64,000 nt of DNA. It comes from Asterochloris sp. CNOR1 (taxonomy: Eukaryota > Chlorophyta > Trebouxiophyceae > Trebouxiales > Trebouxiaceae). The stretch spans positions 2,418,001 to 2,482,000 of the forward strand of contig OZ017757.1 in the NCBI GenBank assembly GCA_963969365.1, read 5' to 3'. The position numbers and the translations under genes were made by a program. Shown piece after piece: positions 1-64,000 of this stretch. The notes beneath the pieces were generated by a model. The model was not told the origin of the DNA. It did no database searches and saw only the letters and a program-made list of their open reading frames with translations. Position 1 is the stretch's first letter. Each line of letters opens with the position of its first letter.

Positions 1-305
1 AGCAGGACGGCGCAGCCGACAGCAATCCGGGTTCACCTAGGGTTCACGAATGGGCAGCCGCAGGCTCAGAGGATGTCAGCCACCTGCTTCTGCAGGCCAC
101 ACCTGCCTGCAAGCACGCCTGCGTGGCGGTCACGAGCATGCCCTGCCAGCACAGTAGTCTGCCTGCCCAACTCCAACACCACCTGTCCGCATTATTCCCC
201 AAGGCACACTGGCCTGCCAGCAAGTCTGCATGCCTGCCAGTAAAACAAATGCAGGACATACTTTGCCAGCCACAGCTTCACTGAGACCCAGCCCACGGAA
301 CCCAC

Positions 306-987
306 CTGCCTGCCAGGCGTCGCCCACGACCTTGCTGCTCCCCCCTGGCTTGCTCCTTAGAGCGGCCTGCGCCTGCCCCGAGGGCCGGGCGCCACCGCCA
401 GACCCACTGCCCTGCACAGGCAGGGTGGCGCTGCGGCGGAGGGGCTGGGGTGCAGGGCTGAAGAGGTCCTCAGTGATGCGGTCCAGCTGGAAGGAGGGGT
501 GGCGGATCACTGTGCGCCCTGCAGGCAACACCGGTCCCTTGCAAGCGGTGATACTGCTGCTGGAGCTACGACGTGGCTGGGAGGAGGAGTGGTGAATTGC
601 CCTGCACCCAACGCTGCACAGTGCGAGAGGTGGTGCTGCTGGATGGTCCTTGGTGTTGTGGTCCAGCTGACTGGAGGGGTGGAGGATCACTGTACGCGCC
701 TGCGGCCAGCACTGCTCCAACACGAGAGGTTGTGCTGCAGGGCCACTTGGCTGGTGAGAGAGGCCGCAGTCATGCTGTGCCCAGGAGCAGCACTGGCAGA
801 CTGTGAGACATGGTGCGCCACAGTGCGCCCCAAATAGCACAGCTGCAGGCAGCTGCCAGTGCGACAAATGGAGGCAAGTGGCCACGCCATTTGGTATAGC
901 GGGAGACTTGAGCACTTCCTCGACTGGCCCCCCCTTGGCACGCGGCGGACTTGTAAAGCCAGCAAGCTCACTGCTGGACAAGGTCAT
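306..987 (-). CDS. Probable downstream exon(s) of the left-edge minus-strand gene
   Basis: The exon at 306-518 (minus) sits between a ctgcag acceptor and a gtgggt donor. It reads RTVIRHPSFQLDRITEDLF followed by a Ser/Gly/Ala/Gln-rich tail. A second coding-like stretch near 900-987 reads AGFTSPPRAKGGPVEEVLKS. Both look like cytosolic loop or tail sequence and lie on the same strand, downstream of the ENT-like exons. They may be its central loop or belong to a second gene cut by the window edge. Phase continuity with the exon at 1191-1335 was not established. Bases 634-715 hold a degenerate second copy of the 306-518 exon start (see repeats). Confidence 0.35.
470..710. repeat. 180-bp-offset duplication of an exon start
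   Basis: Bases 481-520 and 661-700 align without gaps at an offset of exactly 180 bp and differ at only a few positions. Read on the minus strand both say acceptor-like sequence, then R-T-V-I-(R/L)-H-P-S. One copy is the probable exon 306-518. The other lies in flanking non-coding sequence. Confidence 0.8.
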
Positions 988-1087
988 GGCGCCCTAGGAG
1001 ATGGTGTCTCCCTGTATTATGGTGCCCTTTAGCTCTCCCACAACACAAACCCCAAAATTCAACAGATAAGCCCCTTGTGTGTTGACC

Positions 1088-1112
1088 GGGGGGGGGGGGG
1101 CGCGGGGGGGGG
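1088..1112. repeat. Poly-G tract
   Basis: Two runs of G (1088-1100 and 1104-1112) are separated by a single cgc interruption, in a non-coding stretch of the left-edge gene. This is a candidate G-quadruplex former and a likely place for sequencing or assembly error. Confidence 0.85.
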
Positions 1113-1190
1113 AGTCGTGGCCCTGTCAATCACACTGACTCACTCTGAAATGGTGCCCTCACCCCTTACACACAACAAACAGTGCCTCAC

Positions 1191-4100
1191 CACTGGGCAG
1201 GGTCATGGCGCCCTCTATCATGGTGTCCCCCTCTGAGATGGTGTCGAAGAAGCCCAGAGGAGTAAAGCCCAGCATACGGTACGATGCATGCTTCTCCAGG
1301 CCACGCTCGGGCTCAGCTCCCAGCCTGCCTTCTTCCTGCAAGCAGTTGCAGTGATGATGATTCTATGTGCCGTTTTCAGCATGTTCATCAGATCAGCTAG
1401 CTGCATGCATATGCACACACACACACACACACACACTTATCGAGGGCTGCAGCGAGCATGGGCAACTGCACTCATTCAGCTTGAGTGTGTTGCGGCCAGC
1501 CTGCCTGAGTTGTGACATAAGATACATAGGCTCCACGGGACAAAGGTGGGTGTTGGGCCATACAGCTTCGACGCGAGCCTGATGCTGCTGCAGAAGTGGT
1601 TGCGTCATGCTGGCTGGTTTGGGTTTGTCCCCTCCTCCAAACCCACTTTCCTTTATGTTTCACGAAATGACAAGGAAACCATGATGTTTGGATCACAACC
1701 AATCTGACCTGCTGTTGCAGAAGTGGTTGGGTCACGCTGGCTGGCTGGTTGTACCTCTCGATGGACTGCCAGTGCCGAAGCAGCAGGCTGATGGCAGCCA
1801 CAAAGCCCAGGACAACAACACCTGCACCATAGGCCGGACTGGAACAGATCAGCACGGCTGAATCACTTGGGGAGGAACAAACACATTGTGATCACATGCG
1901 GAGCATGTGACTCAGACGGCTGGATTTGCTTAGCAGAAAGCAGCGCTTCCCATTTTGACCTTACAAGAGGCCTCTTGTGCAGGTCTACACATGGGCTGCT
2001 GAAGCACTGCCCATCTGAGATCACCTTGCACAAGAACATGCATGAGCTGCCACTCCAGGCGTAATGGGACTGGTGCTGCTGCAACGGCTCGCACATCGGC
2101 TGTCTGGGACTGCCCACCTGCCACTGTCTCAAACAGGATGATGCTGGCTGTCCGCGAGGGCTTGGGTCCCAGTTGCATGGCCACCTCAATAAACAGCACC
2201 AGGAGGCCACTGCCTACGCAGCCAAGGCCCAGGGAAATAGTGTTCTTGTTGGCGAATCGGGACACCATCTGGTAGGAGGCGCTGAAGGCCACGCCATGCA
2301 CCAGGCCCAGCACAACGATGGACCCCAACAGCCACCTGGAAATGTGCAGTGGGCACTTCAAGCCAAGGGCTGTGGGGCACAGTGCGGCATCAGGCACCAG
2401 GCCCCGGGCTCAATGAAACAACCAGAAGCCACCTGCAGCACTTGCAGCAGGCGTCCTGGGTCATGAGTGCACCGATGAACCCCAGCAGCCACATGCACTC
2501 ACACGCCTCGGACACTGTGAGCTGTGCGCGGTAGGCAGCGTGCGCAGCCACGCACCAGACCCAGCAGGCTGATGCACTCCAGAAGCCTCCTGCATCCCCA
2601 CATGCAGCAGGGGCTGTGAGCTGGGGCTGAGGGCGAGGTGCAGCGTCAGGCAGCAGCATGATGCATCCCAGCAGCTACCCTCATACACATGCAGCGGGCG
2701 CCTGATGCCATGGACTGTGGAGCAGAGTGCAGTATCAGGCACCAGGTGGGCTGGAGGACAAACCCAGAAGCCATCTGCATCGACATGCAGCGGGTGCTGT
2801 TAGCCAGAAGCCTCAACGAGCACTGCCAGGCAGCAGGCCGCCTGCCTCTCCATGCTCACAGAAGGCTGACCAGTGGGGTGTGGGGCAGGATGCAGTGCCA
2901 GGCAGCAAGCCAAGCAACCTACAGAAGCTCACCAGCCACCGGCAGCCATGGCTTCAGGAAGCACACAAGAGAGGCGCCTGATGCATGGACGATGTGTGCA
3001 GGCCATCCAACGGCTCTTGTGCCTGGCAGAGCCTGACGGCCAGCTGTGTGACACGGCTTCTGTGTGCCAGCCACGTAAATGCCTGCCTGTGTTGGCAAGT
3101 CAACGGCAGCATCCAATGAGACCATTGACTTACTTTGGGTTCTGAGGCGTGAAGGGGAAGACAGCGCAGACCAGAGCACAGCCTCCCAAGCCCACCAGCA
3201 GCCTCCCCAGAATGGTCTTGGCCACCCCTGCAGCCACCGCATGGCGTTGGAGGGGTCCTGCGTCTCCCTGCGGCAGGCAACAATTAGCCGCCCCAGCATG
3301 CTGCAATGCTGCTTGGCACTGCTACAGCCACACATGGCACCTTGAGCAAATGCGTGGCCACTGCAGCTGGCTGCACAGCTGCTTCATGCCCCTGCAGCAC
3401 CACATGTCCCCCTGTAGAGGTCTTCTCTGGGGCTTTGGCTTATTCATTACTGACATAGCAAGGTGTGCTCTGCTCCTCAGCACGCAGGCAAACATGGTTG
3501 GCATGCAACGAGTGAGCGCTGCAGCATACTGCCGTGCTGCTCCTTACTGCTGCACGCAACTTTTGCTGCTTGGCAAGCACGCCCCTGAGTGTTCAATCTG
3601 CTGAGGCTGCCAGCAGCAGGGTTCCCATGGCGCATAGGGCATGACAGGCTGCTTCAACATCTGATGACGCTGCCGAGCACACATGCCCTCAGCTCACTAC
3701 AGCGACAGACCACTCACTGCACAGGCTGGAGATGGCTAGCAGGAGGGTGCTAGCGATCACAGAGGGGTTGATACACTGACTGCCCACGACACAGCAGCTG
3801 CCAACAGGGTGCGACTGGTCCAGTCGACCAACAAACCCGGCCAAGCCACGTCCTGCATGGCAGCCCCACCCAAGGCCCCAGCTCACCAAAGTGTTGATCC
3901 AGCCAGTCGTCGCACAGGCTGGAGATGGCCAGCAGGGGGATGCTGGGCAGGAAGTAGGCGATGTTCATCTGCAGCAGCACCTGGGGCCCATACAGGATCT
4001 TGTAGTACCCCAGCTCCGAGCTCAGGGTCATCCACCCCACCGTGTAGGCCAGCTGCACGCAGGAGCAGGTCTGGAGCGTGGAGGATTTGTGGCAGCCAGC

Positions 4101-4517
4101 TGCAGTCAGTGCGGGCCAGCTGCAGCAGGAGCAGGCCTTGGGCGTGGAGGGTTTGTGGCAGCCAGCTGCAGTCAGTGCAGGCCAGCTGCAGCAGGAGCAG
4201 GTCAGATGTCAAGTCAGCCACACCACTGCCAAGGCCAGCTGCAGGCCTGAACAGCTCGGCCTTTCAAGCAGTGCAAGGCGGGCACCGGTGGGAACGGGCC
4301 ACCGTATCTGGTGCTGCGCAAGATCCTCAACGCATGGCAGCCATGGTGCGAGGTGCGTCACGACAACTTGGGGATTGCTTCGGGCTGCATACAAGTATTC
4401 GTCATCAGATGCCCTTGGGGTGCTCACTGAGATGCAGAAGAATTTGGCCACTGTCCAACGACCGCCCTTGATCTTGTTGGGATTGCTGCTGGGCCCCACA
4501 GGCCCAGGACCTGACAT
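1191..4517 (-). CDS. Equilibrative nucleoside transporter-like (ENT/SLC29) membrane protein, 5' part
   Basis: A multi-pass membrane protein read right to left. The first exon (4428-4517) begins MSGPGPVGPSSNPNK and ends at a gtgagc donor. Later exons are 3887-4052 (TLSSELGYYKILYGPQ, then MNIAYFLPSIPLLAISSLCD), 3134-3227 (AKTILGRLLVGLGGCALV), 2118-2335 (VHGVAFSASYQMVSRFANKN, then GLGCVGSG), 1755-1821 (VVVLGFVAAISLLLRHWQ) and a hydrophilic loop at 1191-1335. The helix pattern and the MNIAYFLPSIP and VSRFANKN stretches resemble the ENT family, which moves nucleosides across membranes. That is a family resemblance from memory, not a search. Only about six helices lie here, so the C-terminal half is expected beyond base 1. 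Not all exon phases were closed, so internal exons may be missing. The introns hold many decayed copies of the exon edges. Another multi-pass carrier family remains possible. Confidence 0.55.
1414..1436. repeat. (CA)n microsatellite
   Basis: About eleven CA dinucleotides lie in the intron between the exons at 1191-1335 and 1755-1821 of the ENT-like gene. The His-Thr and Val-Cys peptides read through it are artefacts. Confidence 0.95.
4051..4250. repeat. Tandem copies (66-67 bp) of a splice acceptor plus exon start
   Basis: Units at 4051-4117 and 4118-4183, and a partial third from 4184, are nearly identical. Each contains (minus strand) the string tgctcctgctgcag followed by ctggcc, the same bases that form the acceptor and first codons of the real exon 3887-4052. 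The intron upstream of that exon is therefore built largely of repeated acceptors. Confidence 0.9.
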
Positions 4518-4957: not shown

Positions 4958-7900
4958 ATGAGCTCGAACAGCAAGACGTCTGTGAGCAAGGCACAGAATG
5001 AGCTGCACAAGCGGGTGCTGGGTGGCCTGCTGAAGCAGGATGACAATCGAAAATGCTGTGACTGCCTCTCACGAGGGCCAACCTGGGCCAGTGTGAACAT
5101 GGGCATGTTCATGTGCCTGAACTGCTCAGGCATCCACCGCAGCCTGGGCGTGCACCTCTCCAAGGTGAGGCCCCTTTGCTCCCTCATCCACCAGCCTCAA
5201 GCTGACTAGTGACACCAGCTGCAGGGTGCCCAAGCATGGCAGTCAAGCCACCAGTTCACCCCTGCTGCTACAGGTGCGCTCCACAAACCTGGACACCTGG
5301 CTGCCAGAGCAGGTGGACTTTGTTTCCAGGATGGGGAATCGTAGGGGCAACCTGTTCTGGGAGGCTCGCCTGCCCTCAGGTGCGCCATAGGCTGCCAGGA
5401 TTTTGAGGTCACCCACTGCGCTGCAGCTCTGTGGTCCAGAGAGGGATTCGCTCCGTGCACCAGCAGCTGACTGGGCCCGACACATGGGTAGCACCTGCAC
5501 TGCTGAGCCAGAGCGCTCCCAAGCAGCAGAGTCTCTCAGTGCGTCACCGCTTCACCAATGCAATCCTCGCAGCTGCCCCCTGCTTCTGCAACCCTGCCTG
5601 GCGCAGGTGGTGGGTGTGGCCAGGGAATGGTGGGCATCGTGCCTCAGTGAGCTACAACAAGGCAATCCTCGCACATGATACATCCCCTGCCCCTTATCTG
5701 TTGGCCACAGTCTCAAGTTAGCTCAATCAACTATCAGCCATGCCAGCATTCGCCTCCCCTTAACCAGACCTGTCATGTATCCACCTGTAGGGTTCAGGCG
5801 CCCAGCAGAGGGGGACATGATGGCACTGAAGACCTTCATCACAGAAAAGTACCAGAACCAGGTGGGGCGCCCACTGTCATCCTAGACTCATACTGCTGTG
5901 CGTGCGTGCAGCTTGCAGAGAATGGTCCTGTGTCCGGCATGGGGCGGTGCTGCCTTACTGTGGGGGCCATGGCTGCACAGCAATTAGCTGCACAGTTGGC
6001 AGGACCCTGTCCCCAGCCTCAGGTATGGCTGTATGAATGTGTGGCATATCTGCACAGCAGGAGGCTTATTGGCCCGTTGGTCGCTGCATCATGGTTGTGA
6101 TCAGGGTTGGAGCTTCCAGGCTTTGCAACAGCTGCACAACTCTGCGCAGGGTCGTCTTGCTGTGGCTGCGGTGCAGCGTGATGTAGGTGTTGAAAATTTG
6201 GTGGTGGTTTGGCCTGCCAGCAGCCCTGTAGGTCAAGCGCTGTAGCAGCTCTGCACGGCAAGTACTCTGCCTGTCCCTTGACGCTGCTGCCCTGCAAGCA
6301 GCCTGAGGCCCCGCCTCTGTTGACTCCCATGCTTCCGCTGAGAAGGTGCCTGTGTTGGTGCTGCAGACATATGTTGACCCCAGCTTCCGGGAGGCGCCCA
6401 CCATGGACAACTGGCCCAGCCACCCTTTCATGAAGCAGTTTGAGGAGGGCGCTGATGCAGGTAGGCTTCAGAGGGATTTGCCTGTGTGCGCCAGTGTGCC
6501 CTCAGAGGCAGCTTGAACACGACATGCGCAAGCTCAGGACTGTCACACTTTGGAATAGGTGAGGCAGTGCTGAGATTGCCGGCAGCCTCGGGTTCAGCAT
6601 TGCTGAGCTTGTCAGTGTTCTTGCTGCTCACATGCCTCACCCAAGACCAGCCGCACCTTACACTGGCAGCAGCATCAGCAACGCCAGGCAGAAGCTGTCT
6701 GCCACTGCTGCAGGTGCCACGCCAGTGGCAGGAGGCGCTGACAGGGCCGCAGACGCTGCAAATGCGGGCAGCCAGACCCCTGCGGCAGCTAAGGCCCCCG
6801 CTGCGAGAAGCGGGGCCGCAACTCCGGTGCCTACCCTGGCGGCTCCCGCTGGGAGTAAGCCGGTGGCCCCTGCGGTCCCTGCACCAGCTTTGATGGACCT
6901 GCTGAGCCTGGAGGATGGGCCACCCACAGCTGCACCCACAGCTGCAGTGCAGGGAGGGATGCAGGCGCCTGCAGCCACTGATGATGGTGAGCAGCTCTTC
7001 TACAATGTCCCAGGCTCTGCTGCACTGCACACGAGGCCAGCTGGGCACTGGCAGCTGCAGCAGATGATGACTGTGAGCATTAACTGTAAGCATTTACTGG
7101 GTGGTGTAGCTCCCACAGCAATAGCCCAGGGAGAGGCACAGTTTTCTGCTGCCACTGATGATGGTAACTCGATTAGCAGGCTGCGCTGCCCAGCACCAGG
7201 TGCCAGCTGTGCAATGCATCTGCAGCAGTTGACGCCAGGAGCAGCTCTGCATGTGTCGTGCTTTCAGAATCATCTTGCACCCAAAACTGGGTGCAGGGAG
7301 GCGCGCCGGTCTCTGCATCGTATGGTGGCGCTGAGGCAACCTCTGCACCAGTTCCTAGATGCAGTCAGGGTCATCAGCGTCTGCTGCCTTCCTGGCAATG
7401 GCCAGCAAACTCTGTTGCTTCCAGAGCGCAGCAGCAGGTCGCTGACAAGCAACTTTCTGCATGAGGAGAAGTTGTTGCAGAGCCTGGTTGGATCCCCTGA
7501 CGCTCAAAATCTGCACGCAGGTGACTGGGCAGCCTGGGGTGACGCGCAGCACAGCGCGCCCGCTGTCACTGCCCCCTCGCCAGCTACAGCGGCAGCCCCA
7601 CCCGCAGCCCAGGAGGAGGACGGAGGCTGGGACGCCTTCCAGGGCGGGGACGCAGCCCCCACAGCTGCAGCCACAGCTGGGCCGCCGGTGTCCAGCCCTG
7701 GGCCGTCCGCAGACGACCCCTTTGCGGCCTGGACCTCTGCCCCAGCAGCAGCAGCCGCACCAGCGTCTGCGGCCTCTGCTGCTGCAGCTGCAGGGGACAA
7801 GGAGTTCTCCAGCGCGGGGCTGGGCAGCGCGCCGGCTGTGGGGGCCAAGCACTCGCAGAAGAGGTCGGCAGAGGACATCATGAAGATGTTTGACAGGCCC

Positions 7901-11266: not shown

Positions 11267-14200
11267 ATTAGGCAGAGCCAGCAGCAAGGGCCCGCAGGCT
11301 GATGCTCCATCGTTCAGGAAGCCATCTGTGGTGCCCATGCTGCAGGCCATACAGAACCAAATGGAGAACCAAATGGAGGGGCCAGCAGGCTGGGAAGCTC
11401 ATGGGATTGATGTTGTCGATCACATAGACATGGACGATGAGTATGCTCGTAGAAATGAAAAGCTGAAGCGGCAGCGGGACTTCAGCATCACAGAGCCAGA
11501 GAAGAAGCGGCAGCAGGTGGGCATCGCGAGCTGGCCAATGCCAGCTCAAGGCAACAGCAACCTGTTGGCATTAGCCTGGCTCGACGCGCAGCTGGTGGGA
11601 ACTGCGCACTGTACCAGACAGAGCAGGTTGTGCCATGCTGAGGCAGCATCAGGTGGCATGGTGACCTGCACCGGGTGAGAGGTGGGGAAGCGTCTTCCCC
11701 AGCAAGCGGCACTAGTTGTGGTGCATGACCTGTGCTGGGATGCCTGCAAGCACAATGAAGCAACACAGCGAGCCGTCCCAAGGTGACTGTGCTGTCTTTG
11801 TTAATTTTACCTGGAGCCAGTTGATCTACAGCCAGGGCGCAAGCAGGTTGCAGGGGTTGACTAAGCACTTCAACCCAAAGAGCTTCAGTCCAGTACTGTG
11901 TTGAGGTGTCAAGACATTGCTGCCGGAGGCAAGCGCCCCTGGTGCAGCCTCTTCCAATCATCATCTGTCTTTGCAGGCTGGCAGGGCAAACTTCAACATG
12001 GTCGGCAAGAATGGAGAGGGGCGTGGGGCCGCTGCCGTGCAGACAGCACAGAGGCCAAATGGGAGGCGGCCCGGTGAGCAACTCACTCTCCTGGGTGTGC
12101 AGCAGAAGTCCCCACAGCATCGCAGTCATGCAGGCAGCAGGCAATGTCAGTGGCGCCCTGTCATCGGGTAGTTACGGGCTGCCGGTGCAGCTTGAGTGGC
12201 TGGCAAAGCTCTTGTTCCTCCTCATCACAGAAACCTCATGGTGATTACTGGCAAAGTTGTGGCAGGAGGCTGAGGCTCACACAGGTGTCTTGTGCTTTGT
12301 TGCCTACAGAGACTGCTTACCCCCTAAGATGGGCCCTTCCCCTGTACAAAGGCATCAAGCTACTGTAGGTGTGACTGCTCAGGCAGGCAGGACTCATATG
12401 CTGCTGCCAAAGATTCTGCAGAATTGGGCAGCAGACGGATGGGACTTGTGATCCAGAAGACAGCCTCTCCTGCCTCAGCTACAAGGCCAAAGGCTGCTCC
12501 CGCACAGAAGCGGCCACTCACCCTGAACGTAGGCCAGGCCCCAGGCAAGCCCCCTGCCTGCCGCGAGCAGCATTGCATCAACTCAGTTCCCTGTTTGGCT
12601 TCCCTTGCTGACTGCCGCCCTTCTGGGATGTGGTCTGCCTGAGGGCTCTGCATGAGCTCAGCTTCCATGCTGGCCAGCTGTAGGTGCAGCATGATATGCT
12701 GCCCTCTGACTGTCAAATCTTTGGACAACAGCTCGATGTGATCTTCCTTGAGAACCTCCTAGCATTGCATGCACTTAGATTCCACCCCTGCCATACGCAC
12801 GCGCCCTTCTGCAGGGCACAGCTCTGCGTGCTGCACAGTGCGACTGGTACAGGGCTTGGCTGACTTGGCAAATGCTGACAGGAGCCACCCAGGTGTTGCT
12901 GAGCGTTGCAGCTAGGCAGGAATGACCCAATGTTGGCCAGTTTTGCTGCTGTCCTTGAGCCAGATGGTGACGTTTGATGCACACCTGTCACTTTGTCAGA
13001 GCGCTGGCAGTGGCTGAATTGTCTTGCTGCGCTGCGTGCAGTAACTGGCCATACCAGGGGCTCAGAGCCCAGGTGAGATATATCAGTGCTACAGTCTGAG
13101 CTGCACTGAGGCCAGACATGCACTGCTGTGCCGCTGGTACTAAGCATGTTCATCGACATCCCTTGCACTGTCGATTGGCTGCTTGCGTCTCCTGCTGCTG
13201 CCATCTCCATGCCATCGACTGCACTGCTGGCTTTGAGGCTGCCCGCTGATGTTTGCGGGGTGTTGCGGAGGGTGCCATGAGGCCTTGTAGGCAGCTCTGC
13301 CACTCTATTGCACCTGCGGCTGCAGGCAGAGCAGGCCTGCGCCTGTCAAGTCTGGCAGCGCCTACGGCAGCTGTCAGACTGCAAGTCAGGGGGCTGGCAG
13401 CAGCGCCCAGGACGCAGCCACTGGGCAGGGAGTCGTCACCCGCAGGCGTGGTGCAGCTTCTCAGGCGGCCTCACAGCAGCAGGCAAGCTTGGGCAAGGTC
13501 TGGCATACTTAATGGCTGACAGCGGTTGGGGTGCACATCTGCCAGGGTCTGCCTTTGGGGCTTTGTAACCACAGCCCAGATTGCGTGTTGGGTCATGTGG
13601 GGGATGAGGTCAGCCCACAGACTCAACACCAAAAGCAACTGCATTGTTGCAGCAGTGGGGAGTGCCTCTGCCCTGCACTCATCAGTGCCCCATCCTGCCT
13701 GCCCCTGCAAGAGCCTGCTGCCATGCTTGTGACAGTACAGCAGCCCCAGCACAGCTTCATTACCATACCATGCTGCCAGAAATGAGTTGTCAAACGTTGT
13801 GTGCCATCAGAAACATGCCAAGGTGCTCATGCAGGCCTTCAAATGCCTGCAGATGGACACGGAGGCAGCCTGACCCATTCTGTATTGCTGCATAGCATTC
13901 TCTGCCAAGCTGACAGGCACAAGCTTCTCACCTCTGTCTCCCTGCAGGAGTCCATCGACCTGCGGAGCGATGATGAGGCAGCCCTGGCCCCCGCTGCGGC
14001 TCAGGCGACCCAGGCTGCTCCACGCCGCTCAACGAGGCAAAATGCGGGCAACCTGCTGACCAAGTCGAGGTTTGCGGTGAGCTCTGCTGCCCCTCATTGA
14101 TCCTGCCGCCTAGTCCACGTGCAGCCCCATGAGCTTGTGCACGTTGTGTGCGCAGCCCAGTCTGCATGCCAGGGATTGACAGGCCCTGCTGCAGCTGAGG

Positions 14201-17200
14201 CACTCCAGGCTGCCCTGCGCCGCACACTCAGGCGCAAGGAGGGCTCCCTGCAGACCACGTTGGGGTTGCGTGAGTCATTGCTGCATCATACTGCTCCTGC
14301 CAGCCTGAGTTTGGTGCGTCTGCTGCGCATGGAGGGTTGCGCACTCTGAGGTCACAACACTGTCTGCACACCAGGCATCCACATTCCCTGGGGCTGAATC
14401 CTTCTCTCGCCCCGTCATGCAACAGGCCGCAGAGTTTTGCAGGGAAGCTGTGGCAGCCTGGTGAAGGACACTGTGTGTTGTGATGCACATGCAGGCCAGC
14501 CTGAACGTCTGGCATTGAGGTCCTTGGCTGCCCATGTTGGGCCTATCCTCTTGCAGAGCCTCAAGTGGCGCCTGCTTGATGGACTCCATCAGGCCCAGCC
14601 CTGCTTACTCGTTGCCCCCATCCTGCTGATGCCTGAAGACATGCACTCATGTCTAATAAATCACGGAGACAGCAGGCTGAGTTGTCAACCCATGTGTGCC
14701 CTTCTGACTGCTGCAGGGCCTGAAGTGTGTGTACCCCAGGGATGCTGGCCTAGATGCAGTGGAGGTCAATGCCCACGACCTCAGTCGCCTGGACAGGGAC
14801 GAGTTCCTGAATGACACCATCATTGACTTCTGCATCAAGTGAGCACTTCTCTGCCCCTGGATTCGGAGACAACCTGCATGCTGAGCCCTCTTCATGCTCA
14901 TGTCTTGCTTGGGCAGCTTTGTGCTTAGGCCTTGATGTCATGCAATGAGCAATGTCCTTTCCAGCGGCTTTCATCAGCGTCAGGGAGACTGCATCAGTGT
15001 GTAGATCATGCTCGCAACGACGACAAGAATCAACATGAGTCCCTCTGTACCGTTTCAGGCACTGCCGGTTTTGCACTTGGCTTATGCAGCTGCGAGCTTG
15101 GGCAGGCGCTGCATGCTGAATGCCTGGCAGGAAAGGGGATACATGTTATGTAGTGTTGGTGCTGATATTGCACCACATGCATCTGCATGTGTTCATCACA
15201 GTTGCTGTGCCTCGGCTTTGAGGAGTGCTGCCAGTCAAATGAGTCAACCTTTGCAGGCGCATTCAGGTGGAGATGCCTCCCCACCAGCTGCGGCGCTTCC
15301 ACTTCTTCAACACCTTTTTCTTCAAAAAACTGACAGAGAAACCAAGCGAGGCTGCACGGGAGCGGGAGCTGCGGCGCCTGGCGACCAGCCTTGGCGTGGC
15401 GGAGTGTGATGACCCCCTCAGTGACTGCAAGACCTTGGAGGAGAGGCACGCGCGTATGAACTACCAGCGCGTGCGCAAGTGGACCAAGGTGGGCTTCCTT
15501 ACATGTGACTTGAGAGGGTCTGCCAGTGGGTCCAAATTCACATGTGAATCAGATGGCACTCTTGCACATGGTGACCTTCACCTTGACAGCAGCTGGCATG
15601 TTGCCTCTAGAGGGAGGACAAGCATCCGAGCTCCAAATCACCAGGCCCACTCTCGCTTTCTTGCAAGGCAGAATTGCCCACTCTGCACGATCATTGACCC
15701 AACTTCGACTGGGCTGTCAAGTTCTTCACAGGTCCATGACTACCCTGCTCACTTCAGCATCATGTGCCAACAGCTGAGGAGCCAAGTTGAAACTTGACAT
15801 GAACAGAGAAGCCCGCCAAGCAACTTCTCACCAGCCACGTTCCCTCAATGCAAGGACAAAGGCCTCTCCCAATGTTGTGCCCTCGAGCCTGATTGGCCCT
15901 GCAGGCTGTCCTGACTGCACATGACCAGCTGGACCCCCTCAAACATGCAGCATGGAGAACTTCTTTGTAAAGGAGTGCAGCCTGCAGGGTGTGAACATCC
16001 TTGTCCCACCCAGTTCTGTGTCCTACCCTGCAGATATGCTGCTGCAGTGGCCCACAAGGTTGAGGCTTGACTACCCGGACATGTCCTGCAGGGTGTTGAC
16101 ATATTTAGCAAGGACTTCCTGTTCATCCCCATCCACGAGGCCCTGCATTGGAGCCTCGTGATCGTCTGTTATCCAGGCAGGGTGGTGAACGGGAAGCTGA
16201 AAAAGCCCAGCGTGATCCACTTGGACTCCATGGCAGGTGGGTCTGCTGGCTGCTCAATGCTGCATTGCCTTGTGGACAGCATGGCTCATGTGCAGCAATG
16301 GCCGCTCAAGAGGGGTGACTGAGTTCTGTTTGGCTTTGTGCGCACCTCAGTCAGTGCACATGTCGCTTACAGGGCGAAGTGAGCACAACACTGCTCCGTG
16401 CTATGATCTAACTGCCGTTGGATCAGCGCTGATCAAACTTTCAGGCTGGTCTCTGCAGACAGGGCTGCTATCCAACAGGGGGATTGACACATTTCAAGGG
16501 CTTGGGTGCCACTGAACTTACATGTCTTCTGCTTATTTGCAGGTGGCTGCCACCCCTCAGACAAGATCCTGAAGGCGGTGGCTCAGTACCTGGAGCAGGA
16601 GTGGCGGCAGAAGGTGCTGGATGCGGGCAAGGGTGCGGCCTGGGACATGCCTGAAGAGTTCTGCCAGGTCAGTGCTGTGCCTGATTGATTGCACCATCCA
16701 GACTCAGGACAGTGCATGTCCAACAATCGAGGGTGATCTGGCCCACTCTGTGCACAGGCACCTGCACCGTTCAAAGCTTCATTGCTGTTCCTTCGCATGT
16801 TCCACCTTGATGGGCAGCAATCACCTACCTGGAAAATCCAAAACTTACGGTGCAGTGTGGCTCAGGACCTGGTCAAAAACACTGCAGCACCTATAGGGCA
16901 GCAGATGCAGCTGACTGTCAATAGGCCAGCCATTGTTGCAGTTTGCCAGGCTGCCAACCAGCTTATCAATGCCAGCGTAGCCCCCACATGACCTTCTACA
17001 GAAGGATCAGCCTGGGCATAAGCACTGCAATGACTCTGTTTGGCCATATGTGTCAGCAGAAGCCAATGGAGACTGGCTCATTGCGCTGCAGGAGCTTCGC
17101 AAGTTTGGCAAGAGGGACATGACCCACCTCAAGTGAGCCTTGCCTCCTGGCTGGTCCAGGATGTCAGACTGCATGCTGACTGTTGTCGTCCTGCAAACCG

Positions 17201-20200: not shown

Positions 20201-23200
20201 GGCGGCCCCCACCCACCCCCTTTGTCCTCCATTCCCCTACCTATATCCGGTTCCTGCAGGCTGCTGAGGTCATAGCTGATGTTGATCTGGCTTCCCCTGA
20301 TGCTGGTGACGACCTGAGGGAGCAGGATCCGCCCCTCACACGGCACTTGAACAGTGAACAAAAGATGAAAATCAGGCAGAGGCAGCTGAAGGAGGGGCAC
20401 AGGCCAGGTGTGGCTCTGCAGCCACACACTTCCCTGTGGTCTGATATGTGTGCCTGTGAGGGCATGCAACATTGCAAGCCAGCCTTGCAGCCTGTTAGGA
20501 AGTTGGGCTTTGCCACGCCATGTAAGTGGGTGGGTCCCACTTCCTGTCCAGGCTGCGCTCTTGGGCTGAATCCCCATCACAGATGAGCCTGCACAAGATT
20601 GTTCCTTGCCCCAACTCTGATTCGACCTGGATACTCTGGTGCCACCTTGAGTGGGCACTGCTCTGCTGTATAGCCTGGCATGCCTTGCAAGGCCATTGCA
20701 TCCATGCCATACGGACGCGGCATTGTGCTGTGGAGCACCAAGCCTGCCTGACTGTCTGCTGCAGGCTGGCACCAGAACGCTGCTGCCAAAGCCAACTTGA
20801 CTGAGGCCAGTTCCTGTGGAGGTCTAAGCCTGCCTGACTATCTGCTGCAGGCCAGCATCCAGTCGCTGCTGTTGATGAAGACTTGACTGCAGCCAGCCCC
20901 TCCCGGCTGGATGGCGGCACTCGAGCAGCAGCAGGGCCGGCAGGCAGCCTGCACAGCCCCTCCCCTAGCCACGAGCTGTGCTCCTGGGAGGGGCAACCTG
21001 AGGGTTTCCAGCAGCAGCCTGGGGCAGCAGACCTGGTGCACAGGCTTGGTGGAAGCAGGGAGCCACCTCCAGGAGCCAGCCATGCTGAGCTGGCAGCCCA
21101 CTATGGGGGAGCGCTGTCCTCCGCCAACGAGGCTGCCTCTCAGGCTCAGCAGCAGCTGCACCCCGCTGAGTCAGGTGCTGGCCGGGCTGCTGCTGCAGGG
21201 CCGGGCAGCAGCGGCAGGTGGGCAGACCCATCTCCACCTGGCAGTGCAGTGACTGAGCCAGGTGCCGATGGGAAGGGCACCTGGCAACAGGGCAGGCCGC
21301 CCAACAACTCTCACCTGCAGCAGCTGAGCCATGGCCTGCACCCTGGGCTTCAAGGGGCGTCATCCCTCCCCAAACAGCAGCAGCCTTCCCAGCAGCAGAG
21401 CCAGCCCCCCTCACCCCCCAACAGGGCTGCGCCCCTGGTGGGTGGGCTCCTCAAGGGCAAGCCCGTCTCAGTCAACAGTGGGTGGCACCATACAATGAAG
21501 CAGCCAGACCACATTACAGCCCTTCGCAAAATGCAAGAGAGTCCTTCCTCCCATCACCATCAGGTGGCGGGCAGCCCTCAGCAGGTGAGGGCTTGGCAAG
21601 GCTTGCACTGTCGAACCTGGGTGCGCAGAGGTTGCAGTGCCATGTGCCTGATGCACGACACTGGCGCGATTGCACGACATGCTGTGCTGCCTCTTTGCCC
21701 CTTTTGCAGTACATGATGTGTGGACTCTGGCACATCATTGCATGCTTGTCAGGTTTCTTGTGGAGGTCTTCTGCTGCCTGCTGATGTGGGCTTGCTGTGC
21801 CTGACTGTGCACAGGCGCGGCAGGGGAGAGCAGCTACAGAGCATGGCTCACAATTTGGCATGATTTGCGCACAGGCACCACTGGGCAGGGCTCACTGACT
21901 CCAGCTGTGCTGCAGACAGCCAGCAGCGCTGGGCATGGCTCGGCCTCAGTGCTGCACGTGCGACCTGGCCCCATGCAGCAGCAGCGCACCCAAGCCCCGT
22001 CAGCCTCGCCTCAGCAGAGCCTGAGGACGCTCTCGTCGTGCGGCCGTGCCCCTGCCCCTGCCTCTCTCTTCCCCTCTGCCAGCAGGCAAGGGGCGGGCTT
22101 GCAGCGCCAGCACAAGCGCTGGGGCAGTCCATCCAGCAGCGGCCGTCGGGGCAGCGCATCCACATCGAGCCCAGCCAGCCCCATAAGCAACGGGCGCCGC
22201 AGCGGGCCGCACAACAAGTGGGCTGCAGCCGACACCGTGGTGCTGGCGGATGGGCCTGAGGCCAGCAGCAGTCGGGCTGGCGCCCTGCAGCAGGTGGAGG
22301 CCTGCAGCGCATAGTGGTGCATGAGCAGCTGTGGACCCGGCGCACCTGCAGTCCGTTGTGGACCTCGTGTATCTAGGGAGCTCTCTGCGCCTGCAGTGCA
22401 TTGTCGGGGCACACAGGCGTGTTGAGTGGCAGCAGCAGCAAGGTCAGTGCCCTGCAGCAGCTGGGCCTGCACTTCATAGTGGGGTACAACCATGTTGGGC
22501 AGGTAGGCTGGCGCCCTGCAGCAAGGGGCCTGCGGGTGACACTGTGGTGCTGGATGGTCAGCCTGAGGCCAGCAGCAGCTAGACTGGTGCCCTGCAGCAG
22601 GTGGGGGACCTGCAGTTGTGGGGCCTGCCCAATTTGTATTCCTGCAGCAGCAGCAAGATTGGCACCCTTCAGGTGGAAGGCGTGCATTGTGCACTGTGTG
22701 AATCATGTACGCACAGGCTCCCAGCTGAAGCAGCAGCGCATTGTGTAGCAGGTGGGCGCTCTGGAGCAGGCCACCAGCCAGTGTGTAATGGGGACAGACC
22801 CACATGGAGGTCCCAGCAGCAGCAATGCAGCCTGCAGCAGGTCTAATGTCTGTGGTGATTGGCAGGACATGCTCCTATTGCAGCTGGCTACAGGCTACTC
22901 GGCAGAGAATTGTTGAGGCATTGGCTTGGGCTGGCTGCAGGCCGTCTACAGAGAGGTCAGGCAGGGGGCTTAGCAGCAGACAAGCCAGCAGGATTGAGGC
23001 CGCCTGCTGTCCCCTGCTGCAAAGAGAACTGAAAAGGAGAGCATTGTAGGATGTGCTTGGGCAGGCTGCAGGCCATCTGCGGAGAGACTGAGCCAATCAG
23101 AAGCTGCCTGCTGCATGGTGCTGCAGGCTGAAGGAGGCTGAATGGGGGCCATTGGTGCCAAACAGGCCAGCAAGCCTGTCACTGCCTGCCTGTTGCATGG

Positions 23201-25317: not shown

Positions 25318-25455
25318 CACAATCTGGGTACCAGAAGCCCTCCACCCACAATCAGTAACTGGCAACCTCCCCATGCAGCCTGCTGAGCTTTACATGAAGC
25401 AGCTGTGTTCAATCAGTCCTGGGCCAGCACAGTGCAGACTGTAGCCTATTTCATT

Positions 25456-45929: not shown

Positions 45930-45958
45930 CCTTCACAGTCAGATGGGCTCAGGCATAC

Positions 45959-48712
<2,754 letters not shown>

Positions 48713-49869
48713 GTGAAGTACCACGCACAGGCATGAATGGAATCTCAAGCTTCCCTGCTTGTCAATAGATAAACATTAAGGGGAACGAACAGGGATACAT
48801 GTCCTAAGCATGGCTGCTGCCTGCACTCCAAGTGCATATGCAGTCAGAATATGGGCTTTGTTTGGTCCTGATGTAACCAGGATTCCTGTCATGCACATAC
48901 TGCATGTGTCTGCCAACATCTGGCCTATGTAACAGGAACATGGCCTGCACTCTTGCAAGAGTCAGTTGAATGATCCTGCAAGGCATGGCTTACCTTGTAG
49001 CCATGCTGTATACCTGTACTGATGACGAGCCCTGTCACACATACCAAGTGCAACACACCTGGACGGTGAGTGCACAGCATGCAGCTACTTTAGCTTTTTA
49101 GTGGCTATCAAGCACACCAGCCCTCTGGGATGCAGGCAGAGACATCTAGAGCAACATCATGTGGAGTGGCTGAGACCCACTCGAGAACGCTGCAATCATC
49201 ACAGGCCAACAGGCATGCGCACCATAACACTGCATGGCCACCAGCAGAAGATTTGAATAGGAGGCAGCTACATCATAGCTTGAACCTCAGAAGCTGCAAC
49301 ATCAGTCACAGCGGGCGTGGCACAGCAGCCTCGGCACAGCAGGCGCGGCACAGTAGGCGCGGCATAGCAGGCGAGGCATGCACAGCACAGAAGCACCGCC
49401 TACTTGCCCCCGCAGCTCACTCCAGCACCCAGCTGGGCACCAGCAGAGCAACCTGTTAAGCTGGTGTCAGTGCCGTCTTATCACAAGCCGCCGTTGACAG
49501 GTGTCAGATATAGAAGAGCTCATCAAGACCAGCACATAGAGCATCCAGCTGTGAAAGGACAGCACCTAGCTATGCAGTATGTGGTGTTGTCAATTGTCAT
49601 GGATTATGGCCGAGAGGAAAGTCTTGACAGGTCTCGCTTGGGAATCGCAGCAGCTACTGTAATGCTGGACTGCTTCATGTAAGCTCCTGAGTATTACCAG
49701 GCGACCTGCAGGGCAGTCTGGATCATCATAAGAGATCACACAAGCAGATCTCTGCTTCACAGTCACTACAATAGGCAGGGGATATAGCTGCTTCACAGGC
49801 AACTGTGACTGGCAGAGGCACACATGGCCAGCCTGTGAGGGCCACACTTCCCACCTGAGGGGCCAGCAT
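48713..49869. other. Intergenic stretch between convergent genes
   Basis: About 1.1 kb separates the RsmH stop from the last minus-strand exon of the next gene. Apart from the 14-bp tandem repeat described separately I see no gene, RNA or signal. Confidence 0.5.
49313..49383. repeat. 14-bp minisatellite, about five units
   Basis: Consecutive units of the form cgcggcacagcagg (with changes) run through this stretch of the intergenic region. Confidence 0.85.
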
Positions 49870-54066: not shown

Positions 54067-57000
54067 TCAAGCGCCCACCACCAGGCAGCAGTGCCTGATG
54101 AACTGCATGGCAGCACTGCAGGCAGCTACGCGTGGGAAGGCCCAGAGCCTGACCAAGCATAACGTCTTGTCCTCCACCCTGGCAGCTGCAGGCCATCTGC
54201 GCATGAACCAGAGGCTGGCCCTGGCCCTTGTGCAGTTCACTCCCAACATTCCACTATGCTGCTGCCTGCCCGTCCAGCAGCAGCAGCGCGCCTATGTCCA
54301 TAAATGGATAGAACCAAGCTATTCCTGTCAAGCAACCACAGTTGAGGTGCGCAGGACCTGTCCCTATTTGGGCTACTGCATCATTCTTCTGCTGCAGGGC
54401 AGCCTATGGCTGGGGCACTGCCTCAGGCGTGCACAAGGCGACAGGCCTCAGGCTGGCAACACGTGCAAAGCTGCAGTGGGCAGCTCACCTGTGTGGCCCT
54501 CTGAGCCTGACGCTCCGGGCCCCTCTCCCCCTGTTTGGTTTTCTGCCCCTGGTGACTCAAAGTAGTCGTTCTCGCTGTCTGAGTCATCATCTTCGTGAGA
54601 AGTTGTCAGGCACAGGCAGGGGATGCACAGAGCCATGCGGGCCACTGTGGCCAGACGGCTGCCGAGCTTGGTGGCCCACGTGTTGGGGGCTTCCCACTTT
54701 GCGCCCCTGGCGCGGCGGGGCTGCTGCTTCATGACAGCTGGCAGGCGCAGCACGAGCGTGCTGGGCGAGTCCTCAGGCACCCACTGCAGCAGCCGGCCAA
54801 CGAGCAGCTGTGAGCAATGAGGCGCTGACGTGCAAGCTGGCGATGTGATGGTGGCGATGTGCCTTCTGACAACATGGTGCTTGGCAGGGTCAGCAACAGC
54901 TCACAGGTCCAGCAGCAACAGGTGTGTCAAGCCAGGTTCACTCACCTGCAGACGCCCCACCTGGGCACCTAAGGTGGCACAGCGCCTGCTGGCAAGACGA
55001 GCTCTGGGCAAAGGCAGCGAGCAGCAACAGCTGACGGGTCCAGCAGCACATGCCCTCATCAAACGCTGTTTTCTTACCTTCAGTGTGACCGCCTGCCTGT
55101 GCATGTAGGGGTGGCACAGCGCCTGCTGGGGGGTGAGGCGCTTAGCGGGGTCGGGGTGCAGCAGCTGCCTGACCAGGTCCAGCAGCTCCACCCCATGGTA
55201 CTTGTAGACGTCGCGCAGCTGCCTCTGGCGGGGCAAAGTCACCCCGTCCTCTTCCACAAATTCCTCCCATTCAGATGCCTGCACAGCAGCAATGGAACAG
55301 GACATGCGGCAATACCTAACTGGCCCCGCCAAGGGCCTTGCAGAAAAGCTGCTGGGCCATATGCGGCACGCCGCTGACTTTGACTCTCACAGGGGGGCTG
55401 GTAGATGACTGAACATCCTCCGCACATGCAGAACACGACAAGCCTGTCTGCATGGGCAGCTCACTGGCATGGTGGTGGTGCCTGGGGACCAGCAGTGCAC
55501 CACAGCTCTGTCAGTCTGGAAGCAAGCTGCTTGAAGTCAAGCAACCCCCACTGTTTCACTCACTCATGGCTCAATCATCCTGGCTGAGAATGAGTGGCTG
55601 CATGCAGCATCCAACAGACCATGCCTGGGGACCTGTCCACGCTCTCAGGTAAGTTCAGCAGATGACAAACTGCCCAAGTCAAGCAGCGCACCCATTCCCT
55701 GGCAGCGTCGACTGCGTTTCCCACGATGGCATCGGGCCTCTCATCCTGAGGCCTCAGCAAGGGCCACCTCCCTGCAGCATGAGAGGGCATTATAGTGACC
55801 CTGGTGGCAACATCAGGGCAGGAGCAGTGAACGCCTCCCTGCGGTCAGGCTGGCCCAAGTTCAGGGTGCTCCGGTACAGGATGCAGAAGCAGAACCAAGC
55901 TTCTGCCTTGACTGACAACCAGCACCAGGTGTGAGAGCGGACTGGGGGTGTCAATTCTGCCACCCACTCCGGTTGGACAATGGCAGACACCTCAAACAGG
56001 ACGGGTAAGGCGGCATTCAGCAGCACTGCTGACCAACTCTGAATGAAGACACTGGGGTGCCAGCGCACTCTGCTGCCTGCGCTCTGCGGTGCATGTCATC
56101 GCAGCGCACCTGTGGCCATGCGAACGAGGTCAGCGCCCAGTTGCCACATGTCCTGCTGGGCTGGGCTGACGGCAGCCTGGCCCCTGCAGCTCTCCCCCTC
56201 AGCTTCATCTGAGCCATCTCCCTGCTGTGGGTGCAGCTCCAGAATCAGCTCGGGGCTCAATACTTGCAAGATGCCCCACTCGGGTGCGCTCCCTGCAGGG
56301 CCTGCGGGCAGGAGGGTAACCAGCTTGTGCTGATTGGCTGGTGCCATCACGGCGGACATAATGGGACGGTGAATGCATCCCTGGCCTGCAGGCAGGATGA
56401 GGGCTTGATGCCAATGGTGGGGGAGGTGTGGCTGAAGCAGGTCACCTGGTGTCAGGCTGGAACTGCGGCCCAGCCCAGCTAGTCTCAGCTGTGCGGGCAG
56501 CCCCTCCTCGTTCTCCTTGACCAGGAAGTGCTGTGGCTGCAGGTTGCGGTGGGCTACACCGGCTGCGTGTAGGGACCTCAAGGCCTGCAGCCGAGAGTGA
56601 TGTTGGAGTGGTGTTAATCACCTTGCTCATCTGCTGCGGCTGCAGGTTGCGGTGGGTGTAGCTGGCTGCGTGCATGGATCTTCTATGGCTGCAGATTGCA
56701 GTGCGTTGGGCCTGCCCCATGCATGACATCAGAGCCTGCAGCAGGGCAAGAGCATTTGTTGTGCCCCTAAAGAAAACCGGTGCGTCTGCACCAGTGCCCA
56801 GCAGGTCAAGGGACTCCAAAGCAGCAATCTGTACAGTGCAGGGATGCAGAGCCCATTCTCTGCCCATGCGCAGACCACTGACGGCAACCTGTACAGGGCT
56901 GGCCGCACTTGCCCTGCAGTGCACCAGGTCCCTCCATGTTGGGCTGGAGCAGCTGCCTGCGAGAGCCTGGACCTTCAGTCAGCAGCAAGCTTGAGGCCTC

Positions 57001-59178: not shown

Positions 59179-59770
59179 CTGCAACCAGCATGCAGCTGTC
59201 CAGTCTGGCAATCAGAGATTGAAGGCAGTCGCCTGGGTCCCAATGTCTGCAGCATGGGTTGACAGGTCAGGCCTATACATATGATGTGCAGTGTCAGAGG
59301 CTGTGGCTGGTGTGCAGCACTGGAGTGGTGGGCAACCGCGAAGGTGAGGTGGGCCCAGGCGTGGCCCGCCCAGGCGTGGCCTGCGGCGTGGCCTGCAGCA
59401 GGCACCCGACCGGTTGGGAGTGGGACAAACACTAGGGACTTGCTGCCTGTGAATCTGCAACGACAGGATTGTCAGGTGCAATCTTGGAGTCAGATCCTGG
59501 CTGAACAGATGGACCACTCTTGGTCGTCCCCTGGGTCTGTGTCGTACCTGATGTGGATCTGGGCAATGAATGCTCAGGACATGTCAGCCCATCTTTGCAG
59601 AGTCTGGCATACCGCAGCACGCCACTTGCGGAGCAGCACCACCCCACCTGCTCATTCACTTCACTGGAACCGACTTCCTGGAACATGAGAATATAGAGGC
59701 ACTCTGTCACAGATCAAGCCCGGTCCCGGCCTCAGCTGGTCCAGCTTGACAACAGGGCGCGCAAAAGGAT

Positions 59771-62400: not shown

Positions 62401-63290
62401 CACAACGTTGTTCACTCCTGCTGTGCTGCTGGGACGAGTCGGCACAACATCAAGGCTTGGACTGGGAGGCACCTGGGTGGGCGCATCGACTCCGGTAAGA
62501 ACATAAATGGGCCATGCCGTTGCACATATGTTGCCGTTGCAGATAATGCATGTTTGGTGGACGTGAGAGGCTCTCGAAGGTCTATCCAGCCTCTCACTCA
62601 GACCCCTGCTGGTGCTGCAGAGCCTGCCGATGCATCGCGGCTACGCGAGGCCGAGGCAGGATCCCCAGCATGATCGCCAGCAGCGGGCACAGCCTGCAGA
62701 GCCTGCGGGGCTACAGGTGAGCCAGCAGGAGGGGGCTTTGAGTACTGGCATCTCATGTCGCCACTAGTGATCTGAGGGCAGGCCATCCCAGCATTGCCAG
62801 CCCCTCCGTCAGCATCAGCAGTGTTTCCAGCTTGCCAGGCAGCTTGGCAGATGGCAGCTGGGGGTTGTAGCTGCAGTCTGGACCTCATGATCATGTAGTC
62901 ATTGCCAGCCGGTCTCAGCAACACATAGCCACTGTGGGCCACAGTCTTGCCTTTGTGCGGGACTGCCCTCCCTGCAGGGAGCCAGCTGGGCCGCAGCTGC
63001 TGCAGCCTTCGATCCCCGACATGCACAGCAGCTCTGCAACCAGGCCGCCTTCAGCATATTAGCCACACCATGGCAGCCTTGAATCAGCATTGATCACTGG
63101 TTGCAACCAATTGGCACACTGACTTACTGCCACCCACCTTTCAAAAGGCTGCAAATTGGCAGCCTTTTGGATAAGCTTATCTTAAGATGGCAAGCTGACC
63201 ACAGAGCTTGCTGGGCAGTCTGCCAGCAGGCACAGCAGTCTACGACATGGTGCCAATGGCTTGCCCTTCTTTCCTGACATGCATGCCATA
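62401..63290. other. Mixed stretch between the kinase-like gene and the right-edge gene
   Basis: This contains a minus-strand open frame at 62598-63026 (Pro/Ala/Ser-rich, possibly a 5' exon of the kinase-like gene) and presumably the promoters of both flanking transcripts. No firm splice chain was found. Confidence 0.35.
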
Positions 63291-63308
63291 TGGCATGACT
63301 CATGTGAT

Positions 63309-63438
63309 GCAGGATCTTGTCAAAAGATTTGTGGCTGGCTGGCTGCAGGGCGACCGCAAAGCCCAGAGGAGGGCACTTGTTGCCAGAGAAAAGGCTGTGA
63401 AAGCCTCCATCAAGCATGCTATGCAGAACGTGGACACG
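63309..63438 (+). CDS. Putative basic coiled-coil exon
   Basis: An open exon runs from a gatgcag acceptor to a gtgggt donor and reads DLVKRFVAGWLQGDRKAQ, then RRALVAREKAVKASIKHAMQ. It is amphipathic and basic, not recognised. It may be an upstream exon of the gene starting at 63704 or a separate small gene. Confidence 0.35.
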
Positions 63439-63703
63439 GTGGGTGCTCTTCTTGCTGGTCAGCATTGTCCAGGCTGGCTCTGCAGCTGCAGATGGCATCT
63501 GGAAACCGGTGCCTGCTGGGATCAACTCGTACGAGCACTGTGACTTTGCACCTGCATGAGGGTGGCATGCGTCGCTCATGCTATAGCTAGGTAGCCCTGT
63601 GCAGGTGGAGTCTCAACATTAATTGCTGACACCTCAGATAGAGTCTATGCTCCTGCTGCTGTAGCTGGTAGCTGACTTGCAACGCAACGCCGGCCGTACA
63701 ACA

Positions 63704-64000
63704 ATGGAGGATGAGCGAGAGGTCACTGTGGGGCTGCTGAGGAGTCTCGCAGAGAACTACAAGAAGGGGCAGCTAAGCGATCCTCAGCGTGGAAAGGTGG
63801 CCATTGACACCAGAATTCCTGCATTTCTTAGCCTCTGGTATGTCTGTGGCGGGCAACCACAGAAGCCTGTCCTGCTGCTCTGCAGATTCTGAAGAAGGTG
63901 GTGGCCCTGGAGAGCAAGGACGAGCTCTGCCACGAGATCCTCCATGATATACTGCCTGCTGATTTTGTCATTTCTTGCTGCCCCCAGGCAAGAGAGCTGG
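63704..64000 (+). CDS. 5' part of an unidentified gene cut by the right edge
   Basis: Exon 63704-63796 reads MEDEREVTVGLLRSLAENYK, then KGQLSDPQRGK, and ends at a gtggcc donor. An exon from 63886 after ctgcag continues ILKKVVALESKDELCHEILH in phase and runs towards the window end. The sequence is acidic and helical. I do not recognise the family, and the first ATG may not be the true start if the exon at 63309-63438 belongs to it. Confidence 0.45.

Follow-up and report, generated by a model that had tools for sequence, protein, structure and literature searches.

How introns come to hold sequence that belongs to the exons beside them is the question raised by a 64,000-nucleotide stretch of the genome of the green alga Asterochloris sp. 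CNOR1 (GCA_963969365.1, contig OZ017757.1, positions 2,418,001-2,482,000, forward strand), the whole of which is referred to here as the window. The window is intron-rich, with a G+C content of 53-64% per 2 kb; composition, splice consensus and gene content point to a green alga. The original prediction, made from the sequence alone, listed 21 cases in which a piece of exon boundary, together with its acceptor or donor splice site, recurs in the same orientation inside the neighbouring intron, and connected them with continuing, genome-wide intron growth and with the established idea of intron gain by tandem duplication across AGGT sites. Our analysis indicates that these copies, which we call echoes, are probably decayed head-to-tail tandem duplications that fell across exon edges and within introns, one copy having been retained in use.

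The listed cases were examined as 26 pairings drawn from the 21 cases, each compared with up to 200 random same-strand pairs from the window; the ladders at 4051-4250 and 31716-32030 were represented by one pairing each. We found that 21 of the 26 pairings scored above every random pair, two reached about 0.005 and one (15982/16092) about 0.03. Nothing was seen in direct pairing for 33185/33275 and 47999/48122, which are links between rungs of ladders and whose rungs each resemble the exon copy, at 33370 and 48265, respectively. Taken by case, 20 of 21 have a pairing that beats all random pairs and 15982/16092 is weak. Contrary to the original proposal, some cases do not involve exon sequence: according to our own gene models 46851/46915 is an intron-to-intron copy, and 31188/31262 starts at a donor and lies inside the intron. 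The sites are the following, given by window coordinates and strand; TRF stands for Tandem Repeats Finder.

465-763 (-): acceptor edge of exon 306-518 and its intron copy (465-587 and 645-763, lag 180), 93/116 identical, AG kept.
967-1243 (-): donor edge of exon 1191-1335, copied at lag 219 (967-1024 and 1186-1243), 44/58 identical.
1579-1759 (-): donor edge of exon 1709-1821 and its copy at lag 125, 48/53 identical.
2278-2996 (-): acceptor edge of exon 2118-2335 in the MFS-like gene, with copies at 2547 and 2623 (127/168 and 35/46 identical), and three intron-intron pairs in the same interval.
3678-3944 (-): donor edge of exon 3887-4052 and its copy at lag 189, 59/73 identical.
4027-4257 (-): acceptor edge of exon 3887-4052 within a 66-bp tandem array (TRF period 66, 2.4 copies, 91% matches), 49/53, 49/50, 28/29 and 34/45 identical; the youngest ladder by identity.
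6932-7243 (+): donor edge of exon 6714-6986 in the ArfGAP gene, with copies at lag 177 (101/135 identical) and, weakly, at lag 86 (a 25-bp match, p about 0.005).
13989-14310 (+): donor edge of exon 13948-14076, which precedes the Ulp1 protease domain, with a copy at lag 195, 98/120 identical with frame-breaking gaps.
20728-20896 (+): acceptor edge of predicted exon 20851-21584, part of an 86-bp tandem duplication of two units (TRF period 86, 2.0 copies), 50/57 identical.
22212-22842 (+): local duplication cluster around three predicted splice sites (donor 22293, acceptors 22457 and 22600), six pairs, the best 80/93 identical.
29701-29930 (+): exon 29903-29979 (VAIKLE, CK1-like kinase) and its decayed upstream copy, 37/44 identical.
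31190-31322 (+): intron start after donor 31189 and its copy at lag 73, 48/57 identical.
31696-32078 (+): donor edge of exon 31552-31745 with three copies; six of six rung pairings align, 79-88% identical.
33180-33400 (+): acceptor edge of exon 33376-33515, echoed at lags 95 and 197; identities against the exon copy are 44/52 and 21/24.
34527-34732 (+): acceptor edge of exon 34719-34870 in the kinase/DUF7477 gene and its copy at lag 166, 33/39 identical.
46851-46960 (+): intron-intron tandem duplication at lag 64, free of predicted exon sequence, 41/46 identical.
47273-47680 (+): acceptor edge of exon 47643-47818 in the MraW methylase gene (gene by Pfam) and its copy at lag 364, 37/44 identical.
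48013-48309 (+): acceptor edge of MraW exon 48265-48712, echoed at lags 134 and 266; identities against the exon copy are 34/42 and 28/30.
54883-55186 (-): donor edge of predicted exon 55078-55278 with copies at lags 130-137, 85/109 and 57/74 identical.
56529-56694 (-): acceptor edge of predicted exon 56446-56584, copied at lag 103, 51/61 identical with frame-breaking gaps.

An annotation-free scan compared adjoining 450-bp halves in 50-bp steps, with sequence about 17 kb away (taken circularly) as the distant control. At a score of at least 32 it returned 57 direct pairs, three inverted pairs and one distant direct pair. At a score of at least 24 the counts converge (257 direct, 153 inverted, 133 distant), indicating that weak matches are largely due to chance. 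A blastn self-comparison at a score of at least 35 gave 40 direct and no inverted pairs at spacings of 50-400 bp, compared with 12 direct and eight inverted over the whole range of spacings beyond 1 kb. At spacings under 50 bp, where the self-hit masks direct pairs, five inverted and no direct ones appeared. By strand and distance, then, the window carries an excess of local same-strand copies at spacings below about 400 bp.

The exon-based tests all rest on our own gene finder, which uses length priors and higher intron costs and replaced an earlier self-trained one that had split the window into hundreds of tiny exons. It predicted 131 exons, grouped into 10 gene models that were selected partly by splice-site strength and of which some are fusions, with donor consensus AG/GTGAG and acceptor consensus CTGCAG/G. 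Models g0 (only weakly), g2, g3, g4, g5 and g7 and two parts of g1, a fusion of at least the ArfGAP and Ulp1 genes, were taken as homology-backed. Two predicted exons were removed by hand before the edge, tile, pair-class, codon, splice-dinucleotide, identity-bin and intron-gain tests, 29718-29792 on homology and 33188-33280 because of its echo pattern and in view of plant kinase sequence. Exclusion of inter-exon intervals above 2500 bp gave 119 introns, and further exclusion of introns below 90 bp gave 102 introns with 204 edges.

Each edge, consisting of 60 bp of exon and 25 bp of intron, was compared with the remainder of its own intron. At a score of at least 30, 23 of the 204 edges had a copy there, against about 0.85 expected from swapped introns, and none of the 204 had one when the own intron was reversed. 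Donors (10/102 against 0.30 expected) and acceptors (13/102 against 0.55) both contributed, and in the same test exon interiors gave 1/65 and the intron on the exon's far side 2/168. The control proposed together with the original prediction, own introns against swapped exon-intron pairs, thus places own-intron similarity well above the swaps. Homology-backed models gave copies at 13 of 108 edges (0.32 expected, none when reversed), and the other 96 edges gave 10. Altogether, 21 of the 102 introns tested hold an edge copy, and detected copies cover 3854 of 45732 bp of noncoding DNA. The median length of introns that hold an edge copy is 544 bp, against 275 bp for those without, although longer introns also present larger targets.

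The echoes are unevenly distributed over the window, with a variance-to-mean ratio of 2.2 for pairs per kb. Score-30 edge copies occur in five of the 10 predicted models (g0, g1, g4, g7 and g8) and, among the homology-backed ones, are confined to three (g0, g4 and g7), which falls short of the 'at least eight genes' first proposed. We also observed that g0, g4 and g7 are rich in edge copies, unlike the other homology-backed models, and that none at score 30 occurs in the introns of ArfGAP (up to 6.5 kb), Ulp1 (14.7-18.3 kb), g2, g3 or g5.

How the copies arose is best seen where they form ladders. Rungs at one and two times a spacing were found in 11 rows at nine places, compared with 4.0 when lags were shuffled (p about 0.002; one pair per row was allowed a score as low as 26), so that doubled-spacing ladders are in excess. 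Doubled spacings of 66/133 occur at 4.05 kb, 95/197 at 33.2 kb and 134/266 at 48.0 kb, and 86/177 at 6.97 kb is a further instance in which the shorter lag is weak. TRF reports two arrays, one at 4042 and one at 20728, each with roughly two units. The four rungs at 31.7-32.05 kb, spaced by about 81, 201 and 87 bp, suggest that an 80-87 bp duplication was itself duplicated some 200 bp on, and the rung identities (79-88%) leave the order of steps unsorted. Together the doubled spacings, the TRF arrays and the four-rung ladder favour repeated head-to-tail duplication. The pair, scan, own-intron and ladder tests also bear out the presence of decoy splice-site-like sequences in introns, in the same orientation and laddered.

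From these observations we propose that short head-to-tail tandem duplications, mostly with spacings of 60-350 bp, would have struck these genes repeatedly, in introns and at exon edges alike. Where a duplication spanned a splice site, transcript and protein would stay intact if the spliceosome used only the copy nearest the exon body; that exon-proximal copy would then be held by selection, while the other would turn into intron, lengthen it and decay as a presumably neutral echo with a decoy splice site. Duplications wholly inside introns would give intron-to-intron copies, and those confined to coding sequence would mostly be eliminated. A tandem origin for each single pair, and this order of events, are part of the proposal.

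A different possibility is that the process is specific to edges, i.e. that introns grow preferentially by copying exon borders, for instance because breaks concentrate at splice junctions. We compared edges with intron-interior tiles, which were drawn only from introns of at least 230 bp and of which 22/332 had copies (four when reversed). Against these tiles, the 23 of all 204 edges gave p=0.077 at score 30, which argues against edge specificity, but in size-matched introns the edges stood out, with 21/146 against 22/332 at score 30 (p=0.009), 18 against 12 at score 34 (p=0.0007) and 13 against 8 at score 40 (p=0.003), corresponding to an edge-to-tile ratio per kb of target of 1.8 at score 30 and 2.8 at score 34. 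The pair classes, which like the codon test used the 51 of the 57 scan pairs with a lag of at most 450, were compared with random placement of the 51 pairs and point the same way: 22 edge/noncoding pairs were observed against 9.8 expected, the maximum in 2000 random placements being 21, whereas noncoding/noncoding (18 against 21.3), coding/noncoding (6 against 10.8), coding/coding (1 against 3.0) and edge/coding pairs (1 against 3.7) all lay below expectation. The edges are therefore truly enriched over size-matched intron interiors. In 22 of 24 instances the partner is found on the side of the edge that faces the intron, which is what use of the exon-proximal copy would predict.

This enrichment does not need special targeting of edges, and selection holding one copy may explain much of it. 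If one copy of an edge pair is constrained, the pair can be recognised for up to about twice the time when the rate is steady, and its advantage over intron pairs grows further if most copies stem from a single old period. In addition, intron-intron pairs are plentiful (18/51), and the choice of gene models partly by splice-site strength counts against reading the edge excess as a property of the process. We therefore regard an edge-specific process as rather unlikely and attribute the higher edge rate tentatively to selection on one copy instead of to a preferred target.

A smaller chance attaches to non-tandem local copying, in which break-repair patches templated nearby would be inserted 50-350 bp away and leave an unrelated spacer behind. 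Its support comes from the spacers: 28 pairs with a spacer of at least 20 bp showed no residual tandem homology on average (mean z 0.16) or in most single cases, seven reached a z of at least 1.7 and none exceeded all 20 controls. Some of the controls scored so high (up to 53 and 67), however, that true copies seem to have been among the random draws. The absence of residual homology implies that many duplicated units were shorter than the spacing or that the homology has been lost, and some share of non-adjacent copying is possible. However, the rungs at one and two times a spacing and the TRF arrays at 4042 and 20728 speak for tandem copying, and the pairs lie nearly always on the same strand (57 against 3), whereas templated insertions may take either strand.

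It is very improbable that the copies function as alternative or mutually exclusive exons, or that they serve as conserved alternative splice sites. The splice dinucleotide survives in 22 of 23 rows, where identity alone predicts 15.8 (23/27 in a slightly different row set), but this retention is inflated by the constraint on the functional site and by alignment-end effects. Measured against control dinucleotides, the acceptors gave 16/18 against 77/106 (p=0.12) and the donors 7/9 against 27/66 GTs (p=0.04, uncorrected). Mismatches in 30 coding-versus-noncoding arms fall on the three codon positions at 73/372, 64/366 and 72/372, without an excess at the third, and 10 of 23 edge rows contain frame-breaking gaps; on these grounds we rejected the duplicated alternative exon as a candidate. 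Transitions are over-represented relative to the 1:2 of random change, at 117 to 93 in exon/echo pairs and 107 to 140 in noncoding/noncoding pairs. The copies look like decaying noncoding DNA and lack coding constraint.

The kinase gene illustrates the same point. The upstream copy of exon 29903-29979 was called as an exon (29718-29792) by the gene finder, but the best PDB alignment, to casein kinase I delta, starts at query residue 88, where the decoy ends, and thus excludes the decoy residues. A second likely echo, at 33188-33280, was also called as an exon and is likely to be a pseudo-exon. Such exon-like echoes would inflate protein models when this genome is annotated, and echoes are a possible source of false exons in annotation more generally, one of the two here having been exposed by homology.

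Intron gain by duplication of an exonic AGGT (the Rogers model), in which the intron itself is the duplicated unit, is less probable still as an account of these introns. The 33237/33332 pair fits it superficially, its lag of 95 being equal to the gap between predicted donor 33280 and acceptor 33375, but the predicted exon upstream is the likely decoy dropped before the intron-gain test. In that test the signature was absent: over 119 introns, donor neighbourhoods matched their own acceptor neighbourhoods at 22.50 of 80 positions and unrelated ones at 22.49, and the best own match was 31, compared with 36 at the 99.9% point of unrelated matches. Introner elements, in which one sequence family is spread over many introns, were likewise rejected within the window, where no introner-like dispersal was seen (one distant direct match at a score of at least 32, and 12 direct against eight inverted pairs above 1 kb at a score of at least 35). 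Chance or low-complexity (CTGCAG-rich) similarity, to which the near-chance case 15982/16092 and the converging counts at score 24 (257, 153 and 133) would conform, is excluded for the set as a whole, if not for each weak case, and has next to no probability, because at scores of 30-35 and above the inverted, distant, swapped and reversed controls, which share the composition of the window, give few matches or none and a closely similar script applied to 50 kb of E. coli found three direct pairs, all inside the annotated adhesin gene yeeJ, and one inverted pair at score 32.

Several results weigh against decayed tandem duplication with one copy in use. The spacers lack residual homology on average, edges exceed intron interiors beyond chance in both the size-matched and the pair-class comparisons, and at the strict end this excess tops the roughly twofold difference predicted from one constrained copy under a steady rate. 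Thirteen of the 23 edge rows are free of frame-breaking gaps. Mismatches show no third-position excess in the 30 coding-versus-noncoding arms or in the 14 pairs whose exons are listed as homology-backed (28/139, 21/132 and 25/138), though a neutral exon branch should add some.

Finally, there are few young copies. Among the 33 of the 51 pairs with at least 40 aligned bases, one has an identity below 0.75, seven lie at 0.75-0.80, 14 at 0.80-0.85, eight at 0.85-0.90, two at 0.90-0.95 and one above, so that three of 33 are at least 90% identical, and two of these three youngest pairs belong to the single array at 4.05 kb. A steady process should yield at least as many young pairs, given that these are detected more readily. 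The deficit could be due to a past burst, to unstable young repeats, to their collapse in the assembly or to error-prone copying, each of which would explain it. What survives of the interpretation first offered is thus local duplication of edges in the same orientation, with ladders and decoys, while growth described as 'continuing' and gain through AGGT sites are not supported.

Duplications within genes that carry splice sites and add or multiply introns were reportedly described by Gao and Lynch in 2009; as cited, that work shares with the window the splice-site-carrying duplications and differs in that the window's copies end as intron filler. Tandem duplication across splice sites is already known from two further studies (PMC4974935, PMC2891723). 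In the potato RdRp gene, a recent tandem genomic duplication of intron-exon structure created a new intron and exon segment, and the same text mentions an 83-bp tandem duplication within an intron (PMC4974935); as in the window, the duplication covers an intron-exon border and passes on splicing signals. The window differs in that its copies are diverged and sit within introns that already exist, without any sign of gain. In Drosophila, novel intron positions arose by tandem duplication of proto-splice sites (PMC2891723). The likeness lies in a short tandem duplication with splice motifs as raw material, but that case needs an exonic AG/GY proto-splice site and yields an intron as large as the duplication, a pattern that the intron-gain test did not show here.

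A survey of two green algae, Chlamydomonas and Volvox, reports intron tandem repeats with units of 1-50 bp, enriched towards intron ends (PMC3887541). The window resembles these introns in its tandem repetition and in the greater frequency near exon junctions, but its copies have spacings mostly of 60-350 bp, are mostly 10-25% diverged and in many instances include exon sequence, and decayed duplications at such spacings lie outside a survey of 1-50 bp repeats (PMC3887541). Among the literature matches listed, none bore a title on ladders of decayed exon edges in introns. The mutational process is a known one that is dense in this window, and what seems new is this density together with the exon-edge record in a single window. 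Were this density (21/102 introns; 3854/45732 noncoding bp) typical of the whole genome, tandem duplication would contribute measurably to the growth of introns.

Intron medians in six green-algal species are 198-343 bp, and the mechanism that sets intron length in these Chlamydomonas relatives is left open and described as likely evolutionarily ancient (PMC8226300). It is conceivable, though we consider it doubtful, that edge-preferring tandem duplication in and next to splice sites is a main engine of intron length in the lineage, through a past burst (22 of the 33 longer pairs are 80-90% identical) or copying that was error-prone at birth, with decoy sites kept above the neutral level and still influencing splicing. 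Such an engine, if real, would supply a mutational cause for long green-algal introns.

The remaining observations concern the genes of the window and two short repeats. The Pfam search covered 10 proteins or pieces, amounting to six or seven whole models' worth together with two pieces of g1 and one of g8; the rest of g1, the rest of g8 and g9 were left out of it. It matched ArfGAP, a Ulp1-type protease, EF hands, a PANTS-like protein, cytochrome b561 and one further kinase, with an MFS-like transporter match under the Pfam curated cut-off. A kinase domain, DUF7477 and thioredoxin were matched in probably fused models, a Methyltransf_25-type domain and the MraW methylase in one model, and one of the 10 proteins or pieces had no Pfam match. 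Scans of viral contigs with part of the kinase model and with the ArfGAP part yielded no confirmed relative. A 30-bp unit repeated 2.1 times (93% matches) at 38881-38942 falls within a predicted coding exon, C-terminal in the model whose last domain is thioredoxin, and is apparently a duplication retained in coding sequence. At 49307-49378, a 14-bp unit (CACAGCAGGCGCGG) is repeated 5.1 times and differs from the longer units elsewhere in the window.

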